From a virus, in IMG/VR virus record IMGVR_UViG_3300034111_000815, positions 1 to 38,813 of that record: a stretch of 38,813 bases of DNA; one strand, 5' to 3'. The position numbers and the translations under genes were made by a program. The notes beneath the pieces are model-generated. The model saw nothing but the letters and a program-made list of their open reading frames with translations, was not told where the DNA came from and did no database searches. Below are positions 10,181 to 24,124 of this stretch, piece by piece. Numbering within the stretch: position 1 is the stretch's first letter; the number at the start of each line of letters is the position of its first letter.

Positions 10181-12574
10181 TTAAATTATATCTGTTAATT
10201 CTTCAAATTTATTGTTAGTATCTACTATTTCAAAATACCTTCCTAAACTATCTCTGTCTTTTTTTAATTCTAAATTCTTAAATATACAGTATTCTTTTAC
10301 CCACTTCAAGAATTGTTTAGTGTTTAATTCTTTATAATTCTTGTATTCATTAGTAAATTTAATAACTATCTCATTGTTATAAATTCTAACATTATGACTT
10401 AAATTACCTTCTTCTACCCAGTCAAAGAAATCTTTAGTAGTAGCTTGGATAAATCGTTTACTTTCAGCATTAATAGAAATTGATTTAGTTAATCCATATT
10501 TTAAGAACTTTTTTAAGTTATTAATCATATAATTATCAAATTTAACCCAATCTTCAGAATTCCAACTATCAAAAAGTAAACGACCATACTCTGATAATGG
10601 CGAACGTCTTTCATTAAAGTATTGATAGAATTCTATTTCGTGTCTTCTACGTTCGTGAGATGAACCAACTCCATTAATAACATAATTAGTTGTAATTACA
10701 ATTTTTGGCGAACGCTCAAACGGTATAAAAATTTCATCTTTATTTTTTCTATTAACTGTTATGCCTTCAGTAATTAAAGAGAATAAATTTTCAAATTGAA
10801 AGTTTTTCTTTACATCATCAAAAGAAAGTATTTGAGTATCAATGTTAACACGTTGGTAAACGAAATCTGATTTTTTAGGGTCAAATGCTTTTCCATCAAT
10901 TTTTACTAAACGTCTAAAATTATTTAAAGCTGTAAGCATCAGTGACTTACCAGAACCACCATTGGGGTTATCATCAATTTCTTGATCATTAAATATAATT
11001 GCTTTTTGGTCTGTTTTATCTTTATAAGTATGTATTAAATATCCCAATGTAGTTTCAAGTGATTCAATTCTTTGAAAATCTGAATTACTTACTTTTGAAA
11101 CGAAATCTTGAAAATCATTTTTATAATCATCAACTACTTTAAAATTTCTATTTATTATTTGATTATCCCAAACGTAACCGTTTACATCGACGTACTGTAA
11201 TAATTCAATATTATTTTTACCAACCTTTACAACTCCATTTTTAAACGGTATAAATGAAGTGTCTTTGTCGTCCATTAACATATTTAAAGAAATACTATCA
11301 ATCATATTTAAGTGAGATTCATTGAATAAATACGGACTTTTAGAACAGTAATTCCAAACATTAATTAATTCAGCTTTAATCAAATGATTTAAAACAAAAT
11401 CTTTAATTTGAGCAACTGAAGATAAATGAACTTTATTTGATAGAACTCTAACAAATGTAGGATTTTCAGAGGTTTCAGGATAGTATTTATTAAATCCATT
11501 TTGAGTTAAAAAACATGAATATAAATAAGGGTCAACATTAATGGTTTCTTTTCCGTTTTTATCTTCTTTTACGCTCCAAAACTTTATATCCTTATCAACT
11601 GATTCTTGTTTTATTTCATCAATAACATCGTCATTTACATTTAATTCTTTTTTAATTTGTTCGTTTTGAACACCGTTTTTAATTTTTAATTTAATTTTAG
11701 ATACTGTTTGATAATCTTCAAAATATTTACTATCAAATACCCTCTTTTTATAAGCTGAACGGATAGCCGTTTTCATTTCTTGCTCTGAAAATTCTCCAGT
11801 TAAAATATAACTAAATATAAAGTTTTCGGCTGTTGATTGTTGTATTCCATATTCACAAAAAGCACCAGCTAAATCAAAAATATAGGCATTTCTTTCACCT
11901 TCTATAAATGATTTTTCCCACTTAAATTTCATTATAATATCAATCTTTTTTTGTTCATCGTGAAGTATGCAAGTAGGTGCTTTTTCCAAATAAGTATATC
12001 CTTTATCTTCTTGAATATCTATAAATTCTTCAGAGTATTGATTTAAGTAAATATTAGGATCATAACTTTCAAAACAAACCCTTGATATATTAGAGTTTTT
12101 AATATCAAAATATTCAGAATTAATATATTTAGCATAAGCATTAAACCTTCTTTTGTGTTCTAATTTATCACATTTAGGTATTCTAATAAGTGCTTTTAAT
12201 CCATTCCCTGAAGGCGAAGTAAAAACCATTAAAGTATATTTATCTTTAATTAAACGTTCCCTTTCTTCATTCATTATTTCTTCAGTAGGGTATTTATCAA
12301 AATCTAAAATACACATACCTGAGTGTTCAATTAATCCATTATCTGAACGGTCTGAAAATGTACCATTAAACATAATTGCTATTAATGAATTTTTAATATT
12401 AGAAATTTCTTCTTTATCTTTTAAAGTTCTAATCTTATTAATCTTATCAATTAATGGAGCATTACCATTTTTTATTCTTGTAAAAATTTCATCAAGTGTT
12501 AAATTAAAAGGTACATCTTTTGCTTTAAATAAATCTTTAAAAACTGATATTGTAGTGTTAAATGGTTGTTGCAT
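10181..12574 (-). CDS. VirE-N/primase-type protein fused to SF3-like helicase
   Basis: About 797 residues. The N-terminal 150 residues match the VirE N-terminal / BT4734-like domain, a primase-like fold common in Bacteroidetes elements (ILDFDKYPTEE and FTSPSGNGLKALIRIP patterns). The C-terminal half is a helicase: Walker A GGSGKS near residue 540, acidic SFDDV, and an ITTNY sensor followed by an RRRHEIEF arginine cluster, as in D5/NrS-1-type replication proteins. It should prime and unwind phage DNA. I start at ATG 12574 (MQQPFNTTISVF); longer frames only extend into the preceding gene. The last residues, KDRDSLGRYFEI, recur in the protein at 14168. Confidence 0.82.
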   Translation of the reverse strand: MQQPFNTTISVFKDLFKAKDVPFNLTLDEIFTRIKNGNAPLIDKINKIRTLKDKEEISNIKNSLIAIMFNGTFSDRSDNGLIEHSGMCILDFDKYPTEEIMNEERERLIKDKYTLMVFTSPSGNGLKALIRIPKCDKLEHKRRFNAYAKYINSEYFDIKNSNISRVCFESYDPNIYLNQYSEEFIDIQEDKGYTYLEKAPTCILHDEQKKIDIIMKFKWEKSFIEGERNAYIFDLAGAFCEYGIQQSTAENFIFSYILTGEFSEQEMKTAIRSAYKKRVFDSKYFEDYQTVSKIKLKIKNGVQNEQIKKELNVNDDVIDEIKQESVDKDIKFWSVKEDKNGKETINVDPYLYSCFLTQNGFNKYYPETSENPTFVRVLSNKVHLSSVAQIKDFVLNHLIKAELINVWNYCSKSPYLFNESHLNMIDSISLNMLMDDKDTSFIPFKNGVVKVGKNNIELLQYVDVNGYVWDNQIINRNFKVVDDYKNDFQDFVSKVSNSDFQRIESLETTLGYLIHTYKDKTDQKAIIFNDQEIDDNPNGGSGKSLMLTALNNFRRLVKIDGKAFDPKKSDFVYQRVNIDTQILSFDDVKKNFQFENLFSLITEGITVNRKNKDEIFIPFERSPKIVITTNYVINGVGSSHERRRHEIEFYQYFNERRSPLSEYGRLLFDSWNSEDWVKFDNYMINNLKKFLKYGLTKSISINAESKRFIQATTKDFFDWVEEGNLSHNVRIYNNEIVIKFTNEYKNYKELNTKQFLKWVKEYCIFKNLELKKDRDSLGRYFEIVDTNNKFEELTDII

Positions 12575-14165
12575 AGTTTTTTGTTTTAGTATTATGTTTT
12601 TCTGATTTTGTTTTTTCTTTATGGCAATTTTTACAAAGGGGCTGCAAGTTAGCAATATTATTTGTACCATTAAATGCTAAAGGTATAATATGATCAATAT
12701 CAATATCTCTTAAATCTTCTAAATCAATTTGACAAACATTACATTTATAATCATAATATGATGCTATTGAATTACGTTCCATTTGAGTAAAAGAATATCT
12801 ATTTGAATTATCTTTAAAATTAGATTTATTATTTACAAATATTATTCTACCACTAGCCCTTGACATTGCAACATAAAGTAGTTGGTTTGAGTCTTGAGAT
12901 ACTTTAGCAGCATAATCATAAATAGGAATTATAACATCTTCAAAAGTAGATCCTTGGCTTTTGTGTGCCGTAATTGCGTAAGGCTTCTTAAGTGTTGCAA
13001 ATCCAGTTTTTATATTAGAATATTCTGTATTTAATTCTGCTATTTTATTTTTTAAAATCCATTTATACTTAACATTACTTGAATTATCAATTTGCTTTTT
13101 TAATTTATCAATTTGTTTAGTAACTCTGTAAGATATAGGATATAGTGTATTTTTATATCCATTTCCAACAAATATAATTTTATCTATTCCGTTTTCATTT
13201 TTTACCTTAATTTTCTTAAAATTATAAGTTGCAAATTCATTACCTATTTTTATAGTTTCTTCACAAAAATTATCTATTTCTAAAATATTAACTATTTCTG
13301 AAGTATAAAAAACGTCCTTATCTCTTTTATAAAATCCATCAAAAAACACAGTATCTCCAACATTTAAAGAATTTACTTTATATCCTTTATCATTAAATTT
13401 TGTAGAACCTATTAACCAATTAAAAGACAAACAAGTTAAGTTTTTATAACCTACGGCAATAGGATTTTTATTATAGATTAAATTTTTTAATTCTTTATCA
13501 TTTATATCATAATATAATATATCATTACCATTTGAATACTTTTCAATCATTTGAATATAACTAAATGATTTATCCATATTTTGCCTAAACTTTGATATTA
13601 ATTCAAATAATTTACTTTCTATTTTTTGCCTATTCTGAATTTTAAGTTCAAAAGAATAATCTAATTGAGTAAATATTTTAGATACTTTAAAACCGTTTTT
13701 ATCTCTTGTTGGAGTAGCTTCAATAGGCGGTATCTGTAAATTATCCCCAATTAAAATAAACTTTCTTTTATCTTTAATTTCCATCAATAAATCAAAACTT
13801 CTATCATTAATTAATGAAATTTCATCTATTACAATTATTTTTGGAACTTTAGATAGATTAGGTTTTTTATGAGTAATTACAGTAACGTTATTATGATCCT
13901 TTTTTATTTTAAACCCAAAAAAACTATCTATTGTTTTTACTTCAAATTTAAAATATCCATTATTAGTTAAATACTTTTTTAATACAGAACATATTTTATT
14001 TGTTGCACCTAAAAACAAGGCATCTTCAACATTAATAGTTTGACAAACAGTAAATGTTTTACCAGTACCACCACCACCAAGAACACCAAAGAACCCGTTT
14101 TTATCTGAATTTACAAAATCATTTATTTTATTTTGTAGTTCAATTTGTTCGTTATTTAAAGCCAT
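12558..14165 (-). CDS. SF1 (RecD/Dda-like) DNA helicase fused to a C-terminal HNH endonuclease
   Basis: A 535-residue protein with the full SF1 set: motif I GGGGTGKT (30-37), motif II DEIS (114-117), motif III GDNLQIPP (140-147), a late TAHKSQGSTF motif V and VAMSRA motif VI. Residues 471-535 form an HNH zinc-finger nuclease: CNVC (475-478), DIDHIIP with Asp-His at 491-492, an Asn-rich turn and CKNCH (511-515). Dda-like helicases help start phage replication; attaching a nicking-type nuclease suggests coupled cutting and unwinding, which is inference. It overlaps the primase gene by 17 bases. Confidence 0.85.
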   Translation of the reverse strand: MALNNEQIELQNKINDFVNSDKNGFFGVLGGGGTGKTFTVCQTINVEDALFLGATNKICSVLKKYLTNNGYFKFEVKTIDSFFGFKIKKDHNNVTVITHKKPNLSKVPKIIVIDEISLINDRSFDLLMEIKDKRKFILIGDNLQIPPIEATPTRDKNGFKVSKIFTQLDYSFELKIQNRQKIESKLFELISKFRQNMDKSFSYIQMIEKYSNGNDILYYDINDKELKNLIYNKNPIAVGYKNLTCLSFNWLIGSTKFNDKGYKVNSLNVGDTVFFDGFYKRDKDVFYTSEIVNILEIDNFCEETIKIGNEFATYNFKKIKVKNENGIDKIIFVGNGYKNTLYPISYRVTKQIDKLKKQIDNSSNVKYKWILKNKIAELNTEYSNIKTGFATLKKPYAITAHKSQGSTFEDVIIPIYDYAAKVSQDSNQLLYVAMSRASGRIIFVNNKSNFKDNSNRYSFTQMERNSIASYYDYKCNVCQIDLEDLRDIDIDHIIPLAFNGTNNIANLQPLCKNCHKEKTKSEKHNTKTKNYATTI

Positions 14166-16446: not shown

Positions 16447-16496
16447 TAACGGATTGCGGCTTTGAGCCGTTTCTTTATGGCTAAAAGGTGCTGTTA
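16447..16496 (+). repeat. Cassette junction hairpin S1
   Basis: TAACG ... GCTGTTA. Arms CTTTGAGCC and GGCTAAAAG pair with one mismatch. The left flank GAGTGGTAAC has no matching cassette start upstream, so this is the outer edge of the array. Confidence 0.6.
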
Positions 16497-16551
16497 TAAG
16501 CTGACGGTTACGAATGTTACTATGAGAAATTAATTTAAAAAAAACAACGAT

Positions 16552-16746
16552 ATGAAAACAGCAATGGAATTATTAATTGAAAAAATTGATAAAATGGAAA
16601 GTAATAATAGCATTATTAAAATATGGGCTAATGAATTACTTGAAAAAGAAAAAAAGCAAATAGAACAAGCTTTTGATTTTGGATATGATAGAGATGATAT
16701 GAGTGGCGAAGAATATTTTAATAATACATACAAAAATATTGATTAG
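16552..16746 (+). CDS. Cassette 1 gene: small acidic helical phage protein, 64 aa
   Basis: The protein is almost all helix: MELLIEKIDKMES ... LLEKEKKQIEQAFDFGYDRD, ending GEEYFNNTYKNID. The second half, a helix ending in a Gly-x-x-Asp turn followed by a Tyr-Phe-Asn-x-Thr-Tyr motif, is seen in many small phage proteins without known role. Cassette ends 16493 and 16767 are nearly the same as those of cassette 7, although the genes differ. Confidence 0.65.
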   Translation: MKTAMELLIEKIDKMESNNSIIKIWANELLEKEKKQIEQAFDFGYDRDDMSGEEYFNNTYKNID

Positions 16747-16763
16747 TAGCTACCGTTTGCTTA

Positions 16764-16890
16764 TAAAGTAAAAGCATTGGCGTTTGTTGCCAATTTGAAA
16801 AACAAATGTTTAATTTAACCAAAAATATTGATATGAAAATTGAAGTAAAAATTACCGATGATGCTGGCAATGTTCAGCAATACGTTGTTA
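16764..16890 (+). repeat. Cassette junction S2 (degenerate)
   Basis: Left core TAAAG instead of TAACG; right core GTTA at 16887 inside the cassette 2 gene. The arms keep register only in blocks (GCATTG...TTGCCA against TGGCAA...CAATAC). The left flank GCTTATAA still pairs with the start of cassette 1. Confidence 0.45.
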
Positions 16891-17036
16891 GCGGTTCGTT
16901 GGTTTCTCCTGATGCCATTCAAAAAGAGGCAGAAAGATTCCAAAAAGCGACTGCAAACAAAATGGCTATTGAATGCACAGCATTTGGTCAGGGAGCTTTA
17001 TGGATTAGAAGTTTGTTTCTTACCAATGACCGCTAA
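16833..17036 (+). CDS. Cassette 2 gene: small protein, 67 aa
   Basis: The protein begins MKIEVKITDDAGNVQQYVVS and continues with a helix (IQKEAERFQKATANKM) and a C-terminal aromatic region. The GNVQQYVVSGSL segment is encoded by the right arm of junction S2, so cassette DNA supplies part of the reading frame. I start at 16833; an ATG at 16806 lies in the shared cassette leader motif AATGTTTAATT and is less likely. Family unknown. Confidence 0.55.
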   Translation: MKIEVKITDDAGNVQQYVVSGSLVSPDAIQKEAERFQKATANKMAIECTAFGQGALWIRSLFLTNDR

Positions 17037-17061
17037 CGTTTTGCAGATTTGCGATGGGCGG
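17034..17061 (+). repeat. Cassette half-junction S3
   Basis: GACCGCTAACGTTTTGCAG matches the left half of other junctions and pairs with the cassette 2 start at 16887. No convincing right arm with GTTA follows before the next gene, so the site seems truncated or rearranged. The end given is approximate. Confidence 0.45.
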
Positions 17062-17120
17062 ATTAATAACTAAAAATTTGATATGAAATAGGTTGTAACG
17101 AATGTTTAATTAATACACAT

Positions 17121-17294
17121 ATGGAAAAGTTAAGTTTTGAAGATTGGAAAAATAATTTAAGTTACAGTAAAAATGCAAATTGTTATAATAATAAAAAGTT
17201 TAATGGACACGATAAAGATGATTTTTATTGGGCTAGTGAACTAAAAAAAGATGATGATTTGATGATTCAGTACGAGATCTACAAAAATAAATAA
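17121..17294 (+). CDS. Cassette 3 gene: small protein, 57 aa
   Basis: An open frame starting MEKLSFEDWKNNLSYSKNAN, polar and Asn/Lys/Asp-rich, ending in a short helix QYEIYKNK. It sits between half-junction S3 and junction S4. The leader contains CGAATGTTTAATTAAT, the motif shared by cassette leaders. No family is recognised. Confidence 0.55.
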   Translation: MEKLSFEDWKNNLSYSKNANCYNNKKFNGHDKDDFYWASELKKDDDLMIQYEIYKNK

Positions 17295-17313
17295 CAATGC
17301 TACAACTTACCTA

Positions 17314-17362
17314 TAACGTTTTGCAGCTAATAAATCGGCTTGCTGTTTATTAGCTGCTGTTA
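17314..17362 (+). repeat. Cassette junction hairpin S4
   Basis: TAACGTTTT, then a perfect 12-bp stem GCAGCTAATAAA/TTTATTAGCTGC with an 11-base loop, then T-GTTA. The stem is the same as in S7. The right flank GTTAGTACC pairs with GGTACTAAC at S5, not with the left flank of S4. Confidence 0.75.
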
Positions 17363-17406
17363 GTACCAGTAGCCAAATTAAAATTTAAAAACAAATATAA
17401 AAAAAT

Positions 17407-17751
17407 ATGAAAGCAGATATATTACAAATATTACACGAGGAAGCAACAACACAATATAATCCTGATGGTAAAGATGAAAGAGTTATTAATTCAGATGAAT
17501 TTGATACAGTTGCTAATCAAATAATAAACTTATTTAATAACCAATGGATTAGTGTTAATGATAAATTACCAGGAGAACGTGAAAGGGTTTTATGTTTATA
17601 TGAAGATGACTATGCGTTAATTGGGTTTGTAGATATTAATGGTAGTTTTACGCTTTATTGGGCAGATGGTAAAGCAACTGAGGATGAAGATAGACCAGTT
17701 ACACATTGGATGCCGTTGCCTAGTAAACCTATATCAAAAACCGAAGTGTAA
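17407..17751 (+). CDS. Cassette 4 gene: DUF551 family protein
   Basis: A 114-residue protein. An N-terminal helical part (LQILHEEATTQYN, ...VANQIINLF) precedes the DUF551 domain: NQWISVNDKLPGERERVLCL, a central strand pair, and the closing VTHWMPLPSKP. DUF551 is frequent in phages and prophages; its function is unknown. The cassette runs 17359-17775, with 15 of 16 end bases complementary and the mispair at the usual place. Confidence 0.85.
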   Translation: MKADILQILHEEATTQYNPDGKDERVINSDEFDTVANQIINLFNNQWISVNDKLPGERERVLCLYEDDYALIGFVDINGSFTLYWADGKATEDEDRPVTHWMPLPSKPISKTEV

Positions 17752-17771
17752 ACATCAAAGGCTATTGGTAC

Positions 17772-17860
17772 TAACGTTTGGCGTATATACGAGGTACGCC
17801 TTAACGGAATTATAAATTATAAACAAATGATTGTAGGCGTATCTTGTATATACGCTGTTA
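17772..17860 (+). repeat. Cassette junction hairpin S5
   Basis: TAACGTTTG followed by a 21-bp stem: GCGTATATAC (17781-17790) pairs GTATATACGC, continuing through GGTACGCCT against AGGCGTATC. Two of the pairs are G-T on the plus strand. Right core GTTA at 17857-17860. Confidence 0.75.
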
Positions 17861-17874
17861 GCGGATAGTTAAAA

Positions 17875-18030
17875 ATGAATATACACACATTAAAATCAAG
17901 AACAGTATGCCATAACAGTGAGAAATTTCTGTTGATGGTAGGACATAGACATTGGAACTTAGGTTTACAAGTACAAGATTGGGGAATTAGATTTATGCTG
18001 ATATGGTGGCACGTCTGCATTCATTTTTAA
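17875..18030 (+). CDS. Cassette 5 gene: small aromatic-rich protein, 51 aa
   Basis: An open frame starting MNIHTLKSRTVCHNSEKFLL and closing with RFMLIWWHVCIHF. Trp, His and Cys are frequent, and the C-terminus could enter a membrane. It fills its cassette from end to end: the start and stop lie inside or beside the terminal complementary arms. This cassette has the longest self-pairing ends, about 24 bases (17857-17880 with about 18018-18041). Function is unknown. Confidence 0.6.
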   Translation: MNIHTLKSRTVCHNSEKFLLMVGHRHWNLGLQVQDWGIRFMLIWWHVCIHF

Positions 18031-18037
18031 TTTCCGC

Positions 18038-18117
18038 TAACGTTATCGAGCTAACCGATGGCGTAAACCTAACCTAGTATATGAGCTGTAACGCTCGCTG
18101 TTGGTTAGGTTGGGTTA
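18038..18117 (+). repeat. Cassette junction hairpin S6 (second subtype)
   Basis: TAACGTTATCGAG then CTAACC pairing GGTTAG, followed by GTTGG and the right core GTTA. The spacers GTTATCGAG and GTTGK are shared with S13 and differ from the GTTTTGC...GCTGTTA subtype. AACCTAACC/GGTTAGGTT (9 bp) offers an alternative pairing. Confidence 0.6.
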
Positions 18118-18206
18118 TAACTTGTAGGAATGTTTGCTGAATGCTTTTTTAAGACACAAAATAAATAAATATAGCTTTGGACGAGCTTTGTAAAATCCAT
18201 AAAAAT

Positions 18207-18461
18207 ATGAGTGAATTTAAACAATACAGACGTAAAAGTATTTCAGAAATGCGCCAAATTATTGGTGGAGAAAGTTTAGCAGGTGTATCAATATCAGATG
18301 TTGATAAAAAATTGAAGGATGAATTTCCTAATGTTTTTAATCAGGGTTATGTAGCTAGAAATCCTAAAAACCATGAAGACCAATGGTATGTAGCAAAAGC
18401 ATATTTTGATGATAATTTAGAGGAAATACCAAATTTAGTAGGTAGAGATTCTAAACACTAA
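18207..18461 (+). CDS. Cassette 6 gene: widespread small phage protein, 84 aa
   Basis: Begins MSEFKQYRRKSISEMRQII, then SLAGVSISDVDKK and VARNPKNHEDQWYVAKAYFD. This pattern, with a basic start, a Ser-x-x-Asp turn and an ARNPKNH-D-W-VA core, marks a small protein found in many phages with no established activity. The ATG at 18207 has an A-rich upstream region; a longer frame from 18177 needs a TTG start and is rejected. Cassette ends 18114 and 18528 pair at 13 of 15 bases. Confidence 0.75.
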   Translation: MSEFKQYRRKSISEMRQIIGGESLAGVSISDVDKKLKDEFPNVFNQGYVARNPKNHEDQWYVAKAYFDDNLEEIPNLVGRDSKH

Positions 18462-18524
18462 AGTAAAATATAGAGCAGTAGGTAAACAGAATATTACTGA
18501 CAATGCCTACTGCCCTATTAGTTA

Positions 18525-18573
18525 TAACGTTTGGCAGCTAATAAATCGCTTTAGTGTTTATTAGCTGCTGTTA
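18525..18573 (+). repeat. Cassette junction hairpin S7
   Basis: TAACGTTTGGCAGCTAATAAA ... TTTATTAGCTGCTGTTA, with the same stem as S4 but a changed loop and different flanks. The right flank GTTATAAGCTG is shared with S1. Confidence 0.75.
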
Positions 18574-18627
18574 TAAGCTGACGGTTACGGATGTTACTAT
18601 GAAAAATTAATTTAAAAAACAATAAAT

Positions 18628-18972
18628 ATGAGTAAATTTAAAATAAATAAAAAATTATTGCTTAATGAGATAGGTTTTTCTGTACATACAAGATATTCAT
18701 CTGACGAAAAAACTGATGATATAGGAAGATGGGCAAGAATTATTTATTTTAATGGAATACAAATAGCTTGGATAAATGGTTATGTCAAACAAGATGAAAT
18801 GCCTATTATAGAAAACGGAAGAGTTGGTATTTGTAATTCATTTCATGTTAGTCCTTATTTCCCAACAAGTTCACAAGGCATTGTTGGATATGAGAAATTT
18901 GATACAATAGATGAATCAGTAAAATATGTGAAAGATTTATTTAATGATTTTATCAAAAATGTTTCAAAGTAG
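18628..18972 (+). CDS. Cassette 7 gene: hypothetical protein, 114 aa
   Basis: Begins MSKFKINKKLLLNEIGFSVH, continues with beta strands (RWARIIYFNGIQIAWINGYV) and ends in a helix (SVKYVKDLFNDFIKNV). The composition suggests a soluble alpha-beta protein. The family is not recognised. The leader and trailer of this cassette are almost the same as those of cassette 1, so different genes occupy matching cassette ends. Confidence 0.65.
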   Translation: MSKFKINKKLLLNEIGFSVHTRYSSDEKTDDIGRWARIIYFNGIQIAWINGYVKQDEMPIIENGRVGICNSFHVSPYFPTSSQGIVGYEKFDTIDESVKYVKDLFNDFIKNVSK

Positions 18973-18986
18973 CTACCGTTTGCTTA

Positions 18987-19057
18987 TAACGTTTTGCGGC
19001 TAATGGCTGGCGGCAATAAGCGTTTAGTAGGTAGCCGCTTGACATTAGGTGCTGTTA
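18987..19057 (+). repeat. Cassette junction hairpin S8
   Basis: TAACGTTTTGCGG ... GTGCTGTTA with CTAATG/CATTAG and GCGGC/GCCGC stems. The right flank GTTATGTTTT pairs with the cassette 8 end GGAACATAAC. Confidence 0.65.
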
Positions 19058-19104
19058 TGTTTTCGGTTTTTAGGGTAGACTATTAATAATTAAAATATAA
19101 ACAA

Positions 19105-19437
19105 ATGGAAAAATTTAGATTAAGTTTAAAAGACAAAGATGATAATATTTACCACCAAGAAGTAGAAGGTGAAAGAATAATGATTAATGATTTAGAAGCA
19201 TTCGTTTTTAGAGATAATGATTACGATTACGAAGGAGAAGAAATTGAGGGATGGAATGTTTCACATTTAGAAACTGGAATGCGTATGGCTTCGGATTTGT
19301 ATAAAGAATATGCTATTGCAAAAGCTAAAACTAATTATGAAAAATATCCCGAATGTATTGAAAAAGGAAGGCAATTGTGTATTGAAAAAGGTATTGCTTT
19401 GCCAGTTAATCGTGTGTCGGAAAAAACTGGAACATAA
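19105..19437 (+). CDS. Cassette 8 gene: acidic hypothetical protein, 110 aa
   Basis: Begins MEKFRLSLKDKDDNIYHQEV, with an acidic middle (RDNDYDYEGEEIEGWNVSHL) and a helical, more basic C-terminus containing two Cys and ending VNRVSEKTGT. The last residues and the stop are encoded in the pairing end of the cassette (GGAACATAACG). Function is unknown. Confidence 0.65.
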   Translation: MEKFRLSLKDKDDNIYHQEVEGERIMINDLEAFVFRDNDYDYEGEEIEGWNVSHLETGMRMASDLYKEYAIAKAKTNYEKYPECIEKGRQLCIEKGIALPVNRVSEKTGT

Positions 19438-19560
19438 CGTTTCGCATATTGCCGAAGGTGGGGTTTTGTACCACTAATGTTTAATTGAAATACAAAACTT
19501 AATAATATGGAAAATATTGATTTGAAAAACGAAACCCCCACTTTTGGCAATGTGCTGTTA
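19435..19560 (+). repeat. Cassette junction hairpin S9 (spans next gene's start)
   Basis: Left arm GCATATTGCCGAAGGTGGGG pairs with the right arm ending GGCAATGTGC, mainly Watson-Crick with three G-T pairs and one bulge. The 126-bp site includes the ATG at 19507 of the next gene in its loop; right core GTTA 19557-19560. Confidence 0.75.
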
Positions 19561-19782
19561 CCTGCTGTACCTTTTATGGCTAAGTGGAAAGGGCATTACG
19601 GAGCTGTCAAAGTGAAAGCTCTTAATGAAGATAAAGCAATTGTGGAAATACGATTTGCTGACCCATATCTAAATTACGAAAAAGAAGCGAATACAAAAGA
19701 TTTGGAATTATATCCTGAACACAACTGCATTCCTGACAGCTTTAACGGTCATTGTCCTGTGTGTGGGAGGTATTGCAGGTAA
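19507..19782 (+). CDS. Cassette 9 gene: small zinc-finger-like protein, 91 aa
   Basis: The N-terminus (NETPTFGNVLLPAV) is encoded by the right arm and core of junction S9, that is, by recombination-site DNA. The rest has a small SH3-like beta core (MAKWKGHYGAVKVKAL ... IVEIRFADPYLNY) and a C-terminal CIPDSFNGHCPVCGRYC cluster that could bind zinc. The frame opens inside the S9 loop. Cassette ends 19557 and 19783 pair at 13 of 15 bases. Function is unknown. Confidence 0.65.
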   Translation: MENIDLKNETPTFGNVLLPAVPFMAKWKGHYGAVKVKALNEDKAIVEIRFADPYLNYEKEANTKDLELYPEHNCIPDSFNGHCPVCGRYCR

Positions 19783-19903
19783 CGGCTGCGGCTATGACCA
19801 GTGGCGGATTACGAGTACAAAACTATCAAAATAAGATACAGAATGAACGAAGCAAATAACTTACAAACACCCACGCAGCCGCCATTGGTTATAGCCGATG
19901 TTA
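19780..19903 (+). repeat. Cassette junction hairpin S10 (spans next gene's start)
   Basis: Left arm 19789-19807 and right arm 19879-19897 pair over 19 bases with two G-T pairs. Left core TAACG at 19780, right core GTTA at 19900-19903. The start codon of the methyltransferase lies in the loop. Confidence 0.8.
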
Positions 19904-20538
19904 GCCGCTGCCCTTCTATTAATTTTTTCAATGTGGATTGCATTGAGTTTATGAAAACTAAGCCTGATAAATGCTATGATTTGGCTATTGTTGACCCTCC
20001 TTATGGGATTGGATTAGTAAAGACAGAAGCTGGCAATTGGGGGCAAAGAAAAGAAAATAAGGGAAGTATTGATAGTAAGACGCAATGGGACTTTGAACGC
20101 CCCAGTAAAGAGTATTTTAACGAACTTTTTAGGGTAAGTAAAAATCAAATTATATGGGGGGGTAATTACTTTATTGATTTGATTCAAAAGCCTACAAGTT
20201 GCTTTATAGTTTGGGATAAAAAAAACGGTGAAAGCTATTTTTCGGATTGTGAAATTGCTTGGACATCTTTTACAACTGCTACCAGAATGTTTAAAAAAAG
20301 AACAGTGATGACTGATAGAAGACATATTTGTCAAAAGCCAATAGACTTATATAGATACTGCTTAAAGTATGCTGAAAGTGGAATGAAAATATTAGACACT
20401 CACGGCGGTTCTTTTACAATTGCAATAGCCTGTGAACTCGAAGGCTTCGACTTAGATATTTGCGAGATTGATTCAGAATTCTTTAAAAACGGAGTAGATG
20501 CTTTCAATTTACACAAAAGACAGCAGCGGCTTTTTTAG
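19843..20538 (+). CDS. Cassette 10 gene: DNA methyltransferase (N4/N6 amino type)
   Basis: About 231 residues. Motif IV is DPPYG at 51-55, and the AdoMet-binding motif comes later (ILDTHGGSFTIAIAC, about 183-197), so the order is that of beta-class amino methyltransferases. It should methylate adenine or cytosine amino groups and protect phage DNA or regulate expression. No cognate nuclease lies beside it, so it is an orphan. Residues 1-24 are encoded by junction S10 (PPLVIADVSRC covers arm and core). I use ATG 19843, not the GTG at 19801. It is the longest cassette cargo. Confidence 0.87.
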   Translation: MNEANNLQTPTQPPLVIADVSRCPSINFFNVDCIEFMKTKPDKCYDLAIVDPPYGIGLVKTEAGNWGQRKENKGSIDSKTQWDFERPSKEYFNELFRVSKNQIIWGGNYFIDLIQKPTSCFIVWDKKNGESYFSDCEIAWTSFTTATRMFKKRTVMTDRRHICQKPIDLYRYCLKYAESGMKILDTHGGSFTIAIACELEGFDLDICEIDSEFFKNGVDAFNLHKRQQRLF

Positions 20539-20547
20539 GGTTGCGGC

Positions 20548-20675
20548 TAACGTGCCGCAGCTATGCCCAGTTGGGCAATTTGAAACACAAAAATATCAAC
20601 TTAAAAATAAAGTAACAATGGAACACGAAAATTTGAATACCGCAGAAACTGCCCAATTGGGTATAGGTGCTGTTA
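20548..20675 (+). repeat. Cassette junction hairpin S11 (spans next gene's start)
   Basis: Arms 20561-20577 and 20650-20666 pair over 17 bases with two G-T pairs; cores TAACG and GCTGTTA. The loop holds the ATG at 20618. Confidence 0.8.
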
Positions 20676-20950
20676 GCAGCCGTCCTTCATCACAATATAG
20701 GCTAATGATTTATTTTGCACATAGCACAATGGTTATGTATGCAAAAACAATCGTATCACACGAAAAAATGTCAGTAGGTGAATTTATGGAACAAAATAAA
20801 GATGTGGTTAAACGAGTGTTTGACGAAGGATTATCAATAATGGAATATGAACTTAGCCATCATCAACTTGAAAGGGCTTCGTTAGTTTATTTACAGTCTA
20901 AATATTTCCCTTCGTCAGTTTACGAGAAAGATGTTTATCGGCTGTCTTAG
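20618..20950 (+). CDS. Cassette 11 gene: hypothetical protein, 110 aa
   Basis: The N-terminus MEHENLNTAETAQLGIGAVS is translated from the loop, right arm and core of junction S11. The remainder is helical (MIYFAHSTMVMYAKTIVSHE, SIMEYELSHHQLERASLVYL) and ends SSVYEKDVYRLS. Longer frames begin inside the methyltransferase gene and are rejected. Cassette ends 20672 and 20963 pair at 13 of 14 bases near the core. The family is not recognised. Confidence 0.65.
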   Translation: MEHENLNTAETAQLGIGAVSSRPSSQYRLMIYFAHSTMVMYAKTIVSHEKMSVGEFMEQNKDVVKRVFDEGLSIMEYELSHHQLERASLVYLQSKYFPSSVYEKDVYRLS

Positions 20951-20959
20951 GATGGCTGC

Positions 20960-21038
20960 TAACGGATGGAGCTTGTGGCTGAAATAAACCTAACAATGCT
21001 ATTTTAACTATCACGCTTTTTGCCACAAGGTGCTGTTA
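20960..21038 (+). repeat. Cassette junction hairpin S12
   Basis: TAACGGATGGAG, then CTTGTGGC (20972-20979) pairing GCCACAAG (21022-21029), then GTGCTGTTA. A 42-base loop separates the arms. Confidence 0.65.
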
Positions 21039-21075
21039 GTTTACAGTAAAATAAACCAAATTAAAATAAAAAAAT

Positions 21076-21507
21076 ATGAATAGAGAAATTAAGTTTAGAG
21101 CGTGGCATAAATCAACAAACACAATGTTTAATGTACATGGTTGGTATAGTGAATTTGTATTTGAAGATACGTTAAATGGATGTGGAACAACTGAAACAAA
21201 TCCTTGTAAAATAGAAGATTGTGAACTGATGCAGTTTACTGGATTAAAAGATAGAAATGGAAAAGATATTTACGAAGGAGATATTTGTAAAGTTTTATAT
21301 ACCGACTGGATGAGTAAACCTAGTGGAGATGAAAGAACTATTGCTCAATATATGTTTGATATTGCAAAAGAATTGATAGTTGTTTATGATGTAAATGGAT
21401 TTTATTTTACTCATAAAATTGGAGGTTACTCACAAAGCATAGAGGTTGGACCACATGGATTTATACAAGTTATAGGCAATATTTACCAACCTATATTAAC
21501 TACCTAA
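21076..21507 (+). CDS. Cassette 12 gene: YopX family protein
   Basis: A 143-residue protein with the YopX pattern: MNREIKFRAWHKSTNTMFNV at the start, the core LMQFTGLKDRNGKDIYEGD in the middle and a closing VIGNIYQP. YopX proteins are common in phages of Firmicutes and Bacteroidetes; their role is unknown. The cassette ends (21035-21057 with 21522-21543) pair at about 21 of 23 positions, the best single example of self-pairing ends. Confidence 0.9.
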   Translation: MNREIKFRAWHKSTNTMFNVHGWYSEFVFEDTLNGCGTTETNPCKIEDCELMQFTGLKDRNGKDIYEGDICKVLYTDWMSKPSGDERTIAQYMFDIAKELIVVYDVNGFYFTHKIGGYSQSIEVGPHGFIQVIGNIYQPILTT

Positions 21508-21539
21508 GCTTAATGCTCGATGGTTTATTTTATTGAAAC

Positions 21540-21620
21540 TAACGTTATCGAGCCTTGCTTAGTTTGTAAACCAATTAATGTGAGTAGCTATTATAGCCAA
21601 ATTGAGCAAGGGTTGTGTTA
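21540..21620 (+). repeat. Cassette junction hairpin S13 (second subtype)
   Basis: TAACGTTATCGAG, then a 14-bp stem (21553-21566 with 21598-21611) with two wobble pairs, then GTTGT and GTTA (21617-21620). Same spacers as S6. Confidence 0.75.
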
Positions 21621-21674
21621 CCTGTTGGCGGTACAGAATGCTACTATAAGACTTTAATATAAAAAATAAAAAAC

Positions 21675-22031
21675 ATGGAAGTAATTTTAAAAAAGACAAA
21701 AATAACAAGTGCTGTTTTTAAACAAACATTAACTGCTAATTCATTTGATTTTGAAACATTTGAGGTTTTAGGATTTTGTGTAATTAATAACCAAAAATGG
21801 ATATTGATGTATAAATCATCGACTAAAGAATTAAGAAAGTATTTGATGTTTACTGACTTGAAAAATGAAGTAAATAACTCAGATTTGAGATATACTGTAA
21901 AAGTAATTTTTGACAATAATTACGTTCCTAAAACTTATGCAACAAAAGATGAAAATGAAAGTTTAGATTTTATTAAAACATTAAATACGGTTAAGCATAA
22001 AGCAGTTACTCATGGGCAAATATTTTTATAA
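21675..22031 (+). CDS. Cassette 13 gene: hypothetical protein, 118 aa
   Basis: Begins MEVILKKTKITSAVFKQTLT and contains beta-rich central strands (FEVLGFCVINNQKWILMYKS), ending in a helix and a short hydrophobic tail. It is a soluble alpha-beta protein of unknown family. The cassette ends at TAAC 22077-22080 (ACCGCTTGCAGGTAAC pairs with GTTACCTGTTGGCGGT at its start), but no junction hairpin follows, so this is the outer edge of the array. Confidence 0.65.
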   Translation: MEVILKKTKITSAVFKQTLTANSFDFETFEVLGFCVINNQKWILMYKSSTKELRKYLMFTDLKNEVNNSDLRYTVKVIFDNNYVPKTYATKDENESLDFIKTLNTVKHKAVTHGQIFL

Positions 22032-22115
22032 ACTTATATAATAAAAAATATTACTAACACCGCCACCGCTTGCAGGTAACTACTCGCTAAGACTAATAAA
22101 AAGGTACACAAAACA

Positions 22116-22295
22116 ATGCAAAAGACTAAGATTCACAAAGTTAGAATAACAGAGCAACAAGCCTATGCTTTTGAACAGTTAAAGAAATACGATGTAAATC
22201 TTAGTCAATTCATTAGGCAAGCTATAAAAGAAAAACTATCAAGAGATTGGAAACAAATTAAAGAATCTAAAAAGAAATCTAAATGCCCATTTTAA
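22116..22295 (+). CDS. Ribbon-helix-helix DNA-binding protein, 59 aa
   Basis: A short basic strand (IHKVRITEQQ) is followed by two helices (AYAFEQLKKYD and NLSQFIRQAIKEKLS), the strand-helix-helix order of Arc/MetJ-type repressors, with the Leu-Ser-x-Phe-Ile-Arg-x-Ala second helix typical of the fold. It is the first gene after the cassette array and one base ahead of the next gene. It probably regulates early transcription, which is inference. Confidence 0.65.
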   Translation: MQKTKIHKVRITEQQAYAFEQLKKYDVNLSQFIRQAIKEKLSRDWKQIKESKKKSKCPF

Positions 22296-22737: not shown

Positions 22738-23109
22738 ATGGACGTAACAGGTCAACTTAAAGTAAAAAACGATACGCAAAAAGTATCAGACAAATTTCAA
22801 AAAAGAGATTTTGTATTAGCAACGGATCTAAGCACACCTTATCCGCAGTTTGTAACATTCCAAGTAACACAGGATAAATGCGCTGTGTTGGATGGTTATA
22901 ATGTAGGTGATGAGATTAAGGTGCATTTTAACTTGCGTGGTCGTGAGTGGAACGGTACTGATGGTATTAAGTACTTCAACACATTAGAAGCGTGGAGAAT
23001 TGAAAGGGTTGCAAGTAATAACAATGTAGGTACATCTGCGCCATCAAGTAATGATAATGCACCCAAATTTGATAGGAAATTATCTGATAACGATTCATTA
23101 CCATTTTAA
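22738..23109 (+). CDS. SSB-like protein (DUF3127)
   Basis: A 123-residue protein. The OB-fold-like part begins MDVTGQLKVKNDTQKVSDKF and includes KRDFVLATDLSTPYPQF and EIKVHFNLRGREWNG, matching DUF3127, which Bacteroidetes use as a single-stranded DNA-binding protein. A flexible Ser/Asn linker leads to an acidic tip, NDSLPF, resembling the SSB tail that recruits partner proteins. It works beside the ERF annealing protein and primase. Confidence 0.8.
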   Translation: MDVTGQLKVKNDTQKVSDKFQKRDFVLATDLSTPYPQFVTFQVTQDKCAVLDGYNVGDEIKVHFNLRGREWNGTDGIKYFNTLEAWRIERVASNNNVGTSAPSSNDNAPKFDRKLSDNDSLPF

Positions 23110-23563: not shown

Positions 23564-24124
23564 ATGGAAAAGACATTTGAAAGCCGATTATTGCAGTTCC
23601 AAACTCAAATAGGCATAATTAAAAAGGATAGTAAAAACCCACACTTTAAAAATACATACGCTAGTTTGGAGCAAATACTATCAGAAGTAAAACCAATATT
23701 AACAGAATGTGGTTTAATCTTATTGCAACCATTAAATGATAAAGGTGTTTGCACTGTTATAACAATGGTAGATGGTACAGAAACAGACTTTGTAGAATCT
23801 TATATTCCATTGCCAACTAATTTAGCACCTCAACCATTAGGTAGTGCCATAACTTATTATAGACGTTATACGCTTAGTTCTTTATTAGCTTTAGAGATTG
23901 ACGATGATGATGCACAAAGCACTGTTAAACCAACTATGACTGTTACTGAGGTTAAAATACCATTAACAGAACAAGTTGAAACGGCAAAAGCAAAGATAAT
24001 TAACGCTTCTAGTATTGAAGATTTAACAGCTAAATGGCAAACTTTAACTAAATTAGAGCAGTCATTCCAAGACGTTATAGAGTTAAGTAAAACAATAGCA
24101 GCAACTTTTAAAGATAAGAAATAA
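23564..24124 (+). CDS. erf: ERF-family single-strand annealing protein
   Basis: A 186-residue protein with the ERF superfamily pattern: an N-terminal helix and the segment FKNTYASLEQILSEVKPILT, GLILLQPL, a strand pair, then LGSAITYYRRYTLSSLLAL and EIDDDDAQS. ERF proteins anneal complementary single strands during phage recombination and genome circularisation. The C-terminal 60 residues are a helical tail. It is coupled to the next gene by a TAATG overlap and probably works with the DUF3127 SSB. Confidence 0.88.
   Translation: MEKTFESRLLQFQTQIGIIKKDSKNPHFKNTYASLEQILSEVKPILTECGLILLQPLNDKGVCTVITMVDGTETDFVESYIPLPTNLAPQPLGSAITYYRRYTLSSLLALEIDDDDAQSTVKPTMTVTEVKIPLTEQVETAKAKIINASSIEDLTAKWQTLTKLEQSFQDVIELSKTIAATFKDKK

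Follow-up and report, generated by a model that had tools for sequence, protein, structure and literature searches.

Clusters of attC sites lacking integron integrases (CALINs) were described in virulent phages by Qi et al. in 2023, including Polaribacter phage P12002L, where the site P12002L_attC2 was recombined by IntI1 whereas its other strand gave no recombinants (PMC9892861). The same phage has a methyltransferase gene with sites of the TAACG...GTTA type on either side. On the bacterial side, the IntegronFinder 2.0 survey contains one complete integron in Bacteroidetes proper (Salinibacter). The element considered here is an array of small genes and hairpins at positions 16447–22080 of IMG/VR virus record IMGVR_UViG_3300034111_000815. 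The whole record of 38,813 bp was analyzed and is referred to as the window; L-numbers denote the other viral and bacterial loci compared. The window carries terminase, portal, tape measure, and tail sheath genes, and its phage is therefore assigned to the myoviruses. The array very probably represents mobile cassettes from an integron-like system for site-specific recombination that is native to phages of Bacteroidota.

Like integrons, the phage arrays are linear series of single-gene cassettes, each with an attC-like hairpin bearing a GTTA/TAAC core. Cassettes insert beside an attI-like site and are exchanged between genomes, and the tyrosine recombinase gene diverges from the attC polarity. 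Unlike in integrons, the cargo open reading frames (ORFs) run toward attI, the site lies at their 5' end and often contains the start codon, the integrase lacks an additional domain, and a one-sided 4-nt bulge stands in place of symmetric spacers. The CALINs of Qi et al. are also integrase-less hairpin arrays in flavobacterial phages, but that study reports neither a phage integrase dedicated to them with a conserved attI, nor reversed cargo, nor cassette turnover among near-identical isolates (PMC9892861). The Treponema denticola integron has a non-standard integrase/cassette orientation, as do chromosomal and plasmid Bacteroidota arrays (L119, L138); its integrase reads toward attI and its ORFs keep the usual polarity, whereas the phage integrases read away from attI and the phage cargo is reversed (PMC3607928). 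A preliminary description of the window knew of no such array in a virulent-looking flavobacterial phage. For the array as such, the P12002L CALIN is a published precedent (PMC9892861). For a dedicated phage integrase with its attI platform, reversed cargo, and isolate-level turnover, no report was found in the open-licence papers searched, preprints excluded.

The bounds and layout given in that description proved accurate. The array comprises 13 units, each running from one TAAC to the next, with a TAACG...GTTA hairpin site ahead of a single ORF; a terminal TAAC at 22077–22080 closes the array (Table 1). A strict detector, which requires TAACG...[CG][CT]GTTA and arms that pair, found nine sites on the plus strand and none on the minus strand, whereas shuffled windows gave 0.05 sites each; reading of the sequence adds two intact sites (6 and 10) and two degenerate ones (2 and 3). 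As previously stated, no tyrosine recombinase is encoded in the window (no PF00589 match at E<=1), and Pfam scans of the main ORFs revealed no hidden one either. A CALIN is defined by at least two close attC sites without intI. With 13 attC-like sites in 5.6 kb, whose spacer departs from that of canonical attC, the window array on its own is CALIN-like.

Array-bearing relatives were recovered from site patterns and from the ORF adjoining the array. Terminase-based relatives of the window phage mostly have no sites, and none occur in Freya_1 or in the examined parts of Gundel_1 and LR756500. From 22077 on, the flank of the window is conserved in L141, L106, L058, L111, and L091. L141, a 4-kb contig found via the ORF to the right of the array, is 98.6% identical to the window starting exactly at 22077. 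Its positions 1986–2414 match cassette 11 (window 20547–20974) at 99.3% from TAAC to TAAC, with both neighbours different. The end of cassette 7 is also present (98.8%), after which L141 diverges at TAACG. All remaining array neighbours are replaced, and four of four inspected junctions lie at TAAC. L058 and L106, members of one phage group, have flanks that are 100% identical over more than 3 kb and differ in two whole cassettes. The smaller of the two (639 bp) has been inserted in L106 right at the terminal TAAC|TACTCGC; the other measures about 1.0 kb.

Cultured Baltic Flavobacterium phages of the genera Lillamyvirus and Muminvirus (PMC7077304) display the same behaviour. Each isolate carries 6–9 such sites, all co-oriented, and pairwise comparison yielded 11 distinct indel junctions, none of them outside TAAC(G), between flanks mostly 99.7–100% identical. 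One 439-bp cassette, identical at 439/439 positions, is internal in lillamy9-6 and sits at the attI-like end TAAC|TACAATATTACATG in lillamy9-7, with different sequence on both sides in the two phages. Insertions exactly at the terminal TAAC occur in L106, lillamy9-7, and snork6-1; together with a motif upstream of integrase genes (see below), they mark by comparison a putative attI at which new cassettes insert. Single cassettes also recur at 95–99.7% identity in otherwise dissimilar phages (L013/L055 and L085/L101, with an integrase in L013 and L085); no further match of cassette length appears in the stretches compared. Comparative evidence at base resolution shows whole cassettes to have been gained, lost, and relocated as units, with breakpoints inside TAAC(G), also beside the attI-like TAAC at the 3' end. 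The preliminary description had suggested searching relatives for gain or loss of single cassettes at the hairpin boundary. Such changes were found, including movement, with breakpoints in the 4-base core, and the unchanged gene order among relatives that it had named as contrary evidence was not seen. The Flavobacterium phage isolates L227 and L231–L238, with single-cassette differences, several methyltransferases, and published plating differences, are a ready laboratory system.

Such turnover could in principle be modular exchange by homologous or annealing recombination, with the hairpins serving as short shared homologies. The window phage has an ERF annealing gene (23564–24124), near-identical hairpins in some cassettes could seed recombination, and one L058/L106 junction has 17 nt in common. 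Most junctions, however, have only 4–7 nt in common, always TAAC(G), and far longer identical stretches elsewhere are not breakpoints. The 439/439 identical cassette lies at a different position among unrelated neighbours, and neither the conserved attI-like end nor the one-sided integrase linkage described below is predicted by this kind of exchange, which we regard as very unlikely.

Classical attC bottom strands start with TAACG and end with GTTA. The plus strand of the window therefore corresponds to the bottom strand, and its cargo is reversed relative to ordinary cassettes. Comparison of shared sites agrees: in 28 distinct sites the hairpin recurs together with its downstream gene, in 5 with its upstream gene, and the former type of transfer is directly visible at the junctions of L106, L141, and the lillamy phages. 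Because hairpin and downstream gene move together, the attC-like polarity is reversed relative to the ORFs. This bears out the minus-strand reading raised in the preliminary description, in which the genes run opposite to the usual orientation; the TAAC boundary on the ORF strand corresponds to G|TTA on the other. The longest ORF is on the TAACG strand in 92 of 98 viral units, and the site lies at the ORF 5' end, not at the 3' end as in an integron. An ORF starts in the loop and reads through GTTA at 30/52 sites of at least 110 bp, against 5/117 short sites and 2/52 in antisense. Canonical polarity, with the hairpin moving with the upstream gene, was considered and rejected on the 5 versus 28 sites and on base-level contradiction in L106/L058, L141, and lillamy9-6/9-7.

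The preliminary description left room for an unknown recombinase. That suggestion can be sharpened, as an IntI-like tyrosine recombinase is found on related viral contigs, along with an attI-like site at the array end. No tyrosine recombinase was found in the L058, L106, L091, and L111 records or in the Lillamyvirus and P12002 isolates; one is present in 8/43 array-bearing or related viral records, in six phages just beyond the array 3' end. Linkage of intI to the array, missing in the window, is a feature of these related contigs. A profile built from the six phage integrases matched at least 564 viral stretches, and linkage was counted on 80 kept stretches. Co-oriented sites number 117 upstream of the integrase (219,551 bp) and none downstream (297,913 bp), with 3 on the other strand, and one or more co-oriented upstream sites are present at 43 of the 57 integrase loci whose upstream sequence extends to 1.5 kb. 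A hairpin-less, attI-like TAAC motif, TAACTAYTATATGTA, lies mostly 55–71 nt upstream of the integrase start; at least 12 of its 15 positions match in 49/74 loci versus 1/387 control segments. Integrase, sites, and terminase occur on one contig in L181, L185, L202, L205, and L207, and in the isolate Polaribacter phage Leef_1 an integrase of this kind follows a TAACGCCCCTATATACG end. The geometry of integrase, attI, and attC polarity is classical; only the cargo is flipped, reading the same way as the integrase.

The array integrases retain the catalytic residues and share the SPxDxL C-terminal tail with IntI. They score below the IntI cut-off (about 140–226 bits vs 265), and their TIGR02249 matches, under the cut-off, are split around ~180–236. 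The best PDB matches are XerA-like, followed by IntI4. XerA, XerC, and XerD resemble them in size, catalytic residues, and lack of an additional domain; in contrast to these proteins, the array integrases fall outside the Xer clade, carry the IntI-like tail, and are located at cassette arrays. Phage integrases group together in the tree with weak support (56/84), and those from Bacteroidota chromosomes and plasmids make up a clade (99/96) separate from both IntI (96/99) and Xer (99/97); the tree leaves the branching order of these four groups unsettled. Related integrases adjoin similar sites on chromosomes and on a Chryseobacterium plasmid. Where such a chromosomal or plasmid array is clear (L119/L030, L138), ORF polarity is classical and the integrase is read in the direction of the array, as in Treponema (PMC3607928). 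Among 199 sampled genomes of the bacterial order, 86 have the chromosomal family, which makes a trans-acting source for integrase-less phages plausible. One Flavobacteriales genome (G242) has about twelve matches to this family. An N-terminal extension of ~50–100 residues is present on the chromosomal and plasmid integrases of L118, L120, L121, L122, and L138 and absent from the phage ones.

This abundance of related integrases beside similar chromosomal and plasmid sites, along with the phage CALINs already published (PMC9892861), would suit an array that is an ordinary bacterial integron fragment taken from the host, with no phage-specific system. We consider such an origin highly improbable. 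The specific site pattern occurs in 78 viral stretches against 13 in a far larger genome collection, viral cargo is reversed by 92 to 6 whereas the clear chromosomal and plasmid arrays are classical, and the phage integrases are a group of their own with their own attI-like motif.

The hairpins themselves were correctly described as having variable, self-complementary arms. The arms co-vary, with 5.96/8 Watson-Crick pairs versus 3.73 with shuffled partners (143 distinct arm pairs; 500 shuffles, maximum 4.15/8). The sequence 3' of GTTA is complementary to the end of its own unit, just before the next TAAC. Unit ends in the window are complementary at 8–10 of 10 positions (12 units with an intact site), and for the 99 units of all loci together the complementary run past the core is 3.86 nt long on average, versus 0.76 nt with shuffled partners (200 shuffles, never above 1.08 nt). 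The two flanks of one site give 0.75 nt. In the fold, a stem of TAACG with TGTTA is followed by a 4-nt bulge, present on the 5' side alone, and by the main stem. A G.G mismatch is conserved at the fourth base pair in 71/143 arm pairs (all loci). This mismatch may be the counterpart of the attC extrahelical bases, and the asymmetry of the bulge could mark the strand to be used. Set against canonical attC sites, with their R''/R' (RYYYAAC/GTTRRRY), paired L''/L', symmetric unpaired spacer, and extrahelical bases, the TAAC/GTTA core and unit-end complementarity are present, whereas the spacer is the one-sided bulge with its G.G at the fourth pair. The attC organisation proposed earlier thus holds for the core and not for the symmetric central spacer. 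Identity with a known RNA family or riboswitch was considered and rejected, as an Rfam search of the hairpins gave no family above the gathering score. That the hairpins are transcription terminators or regulators in the 5' untranslated region, with gene turnover unrelated to them, is hardly credible: they do form stable stem-loops between genes on the coding strand and many include the start codon, but no T-run follows the stem, no Rfam family passes the threshold, the ends of cassettes show pairing from unit to unit, and TAAC marks the breakpoints to the base. A regulatory role in addition to recombination is possible.

Several observations weigh against an integron-like system of the phages themselves. 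Five comparisons show an upstream gene with the hairpin; these may be older shared arrays split by later insertion. A one-sided 4-nt bulge replaces the two symmetric spacers of canonical attC. Phage and chromosomal array integrases alike lack the IntI additional domain (I2), an insert present in IntI2. Only 8/34 integrase contigs of at least 30 kb matched a terminase family, one family having been tried. Neither the window nor its clade nor the Lillamyvirus isolates encode an integrase, so the acting enzyme in the integrase-less phages is one that we infer. I2 has served as a criterion for IntI (PMC2426708). The system is integron-like in its working but fails strict integron membership because I2 is absent and the cargo polarity is reversed.

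Beyond the window, the evidence points, with less assurance, to a widespread integron system owned by Bacteroidota phages. It would combine I2-less integrases, a conserved attI-like motif, reversed cargo, and a site encoding part of the gene, and would trade single accessory genes, notably methylases, across unrelated phages, with integrase-less phages using it in trans. In the reading of the window array given at the outset, the recombinase would act on the folded single-stranded site and cut at TAA|C, equivalent to G|TTA on the opposite strand. For such recombination by an integron integrase, P12002L_attC2 with IntI1 is the one published case (PMC9892861). Cassettes would pass through circles, with the complementary ends rebuilding the site. 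The integrase used by the window phage would be supplied in trans, either encoded on the host chromosome or brought by a co-infecting phage, and phage transcription toward attI would express the whole array.

Table 1. Sites, cassettes, and adjoining features of the array in the window.
Feature	Position	Strand	Remarks
Hairpin site 1	16447–16496	+	Cassette 1, 16447–16763; ORF 16552–16746; ends complementary
Degenerate site 2	16764–16890	+	TAAA replacing TAAC; cassette 2, 16764–17033; cassette ends complementary 9/10
Cassette 2 ORF	16806–17036	+	Start inside site 2 loop
Site 3	17034–17090 (end approximate)	+	3' GTTA lost; cassette 3, 17034–17313; ORF 17121–17294; boundary TAACG
Hairpin site 4	17314–17362	+	Cassette 4, 17314–17771; ORF 17407–17751, DUF551
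Hairpin site 5	17772–17860	+	Cassette 5, 17772–18037; ORF 17875–18030
Hairpin site 6	18038–18117	+	Cassette 6, 18038–18524; ORF 18177–18461, possible ATG 18207
Hairpin site 7	18525–18573	+	Cassette 7, 18525–18986; ORF 18628–18972
Hairpin site 8	18987–19057	+	Cassette 8, 18987–19434; ORF 19105–19437, stop is TAA of next TAAC
Hairpin site 9	19435–19560	+	Start codon in loop; cassette 9, 19435–19779
Cassette 9 ORF	19507–19782	+	Stop is TAA of next TAAC
Hairpin site 10	19780–19903	+	Cassette 10, 19780–20547; ORF 19801–20538, N6/N4 DNA methylase
Hairpin site 11	20548–20675	+	ATG 20618 in loop; cassette 11, 20548–20959; ORF 20618–20950
Hairpin site 12	20960–21038	+	Cassette 12, 20960–21539; ORF 21076–21507, YopX family
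Hairpin site 13	21540–21620	+	Cassette 13, 21540–22076; ORF 21675–22031
attI-like array end	22077–22091	+	TAAC core without hairpin (TAACTACTCGCTAAG)
First conserved flank ORF	22116–22295	+	59 amino acids; weak CcdA/DUF6290-like match; occupies integrase place of relatives

Further details of the cassettes and their surroundings deserve mention. Cassette stops at 19435–19437 and 19780–19782 in the window and at 2308–2310 in L013 are the TAA of the following site's TAAC, and recombination at TAAC would therefore always restore the stop. A leader, GTTATAAGCTGACGGTTACG..ATGTTACTATG, is common to several cassettes with different ORFs (window 16493–16557 and 18570–18631; L013, L059, L116) and is perhaps a translation or promoter element. 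Next to the array lie the ERF single-strand annealing protein already mentioned and a DUF3127 protein (22738–23109); an annealing protein at this place might favour single-stranded folded sites. Elsewhere in the window, a BT4734/PriCT primase-like ORF (10181–12670) and the ORF of a Dda/PIF1-like helicase carrying an HNH domain at its C terminus (12558–14165) overlap by 113 nt on the same strand.

Cargo genes encode DNA methylases, YopX and DUF551 proteins, and many small proteins without known function; in L141, an S-adenosylmethionine decarboxylase adjoins a methylase. Such cargo probably adapts the phage to host defences. Several methyltransferase genes lie inside the arrays of the Flavobacterium isolates. 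Nilsson et al. tied poor plating of some LMO9 phages on LMO6 to a missing methyltransferase, with no mention of cassettes or integrons (PMC7077304). Cassette exchange may bear on this phenotype, since the methyltransferases of these isolates sit in arrays; the missing one is a candidate cassette gene only.

Fast turnover of accessory genes in phages is usually attributed to illegitimate or homologous recombination. The arrays described here offer a site-specific route that moves one gene at a time, visible between near-identical cultured phages and accompanied by a candidate enzyme and docking site. The system is also relevant to the origin of integrons, because its integrases lack the domain held to define IntI.

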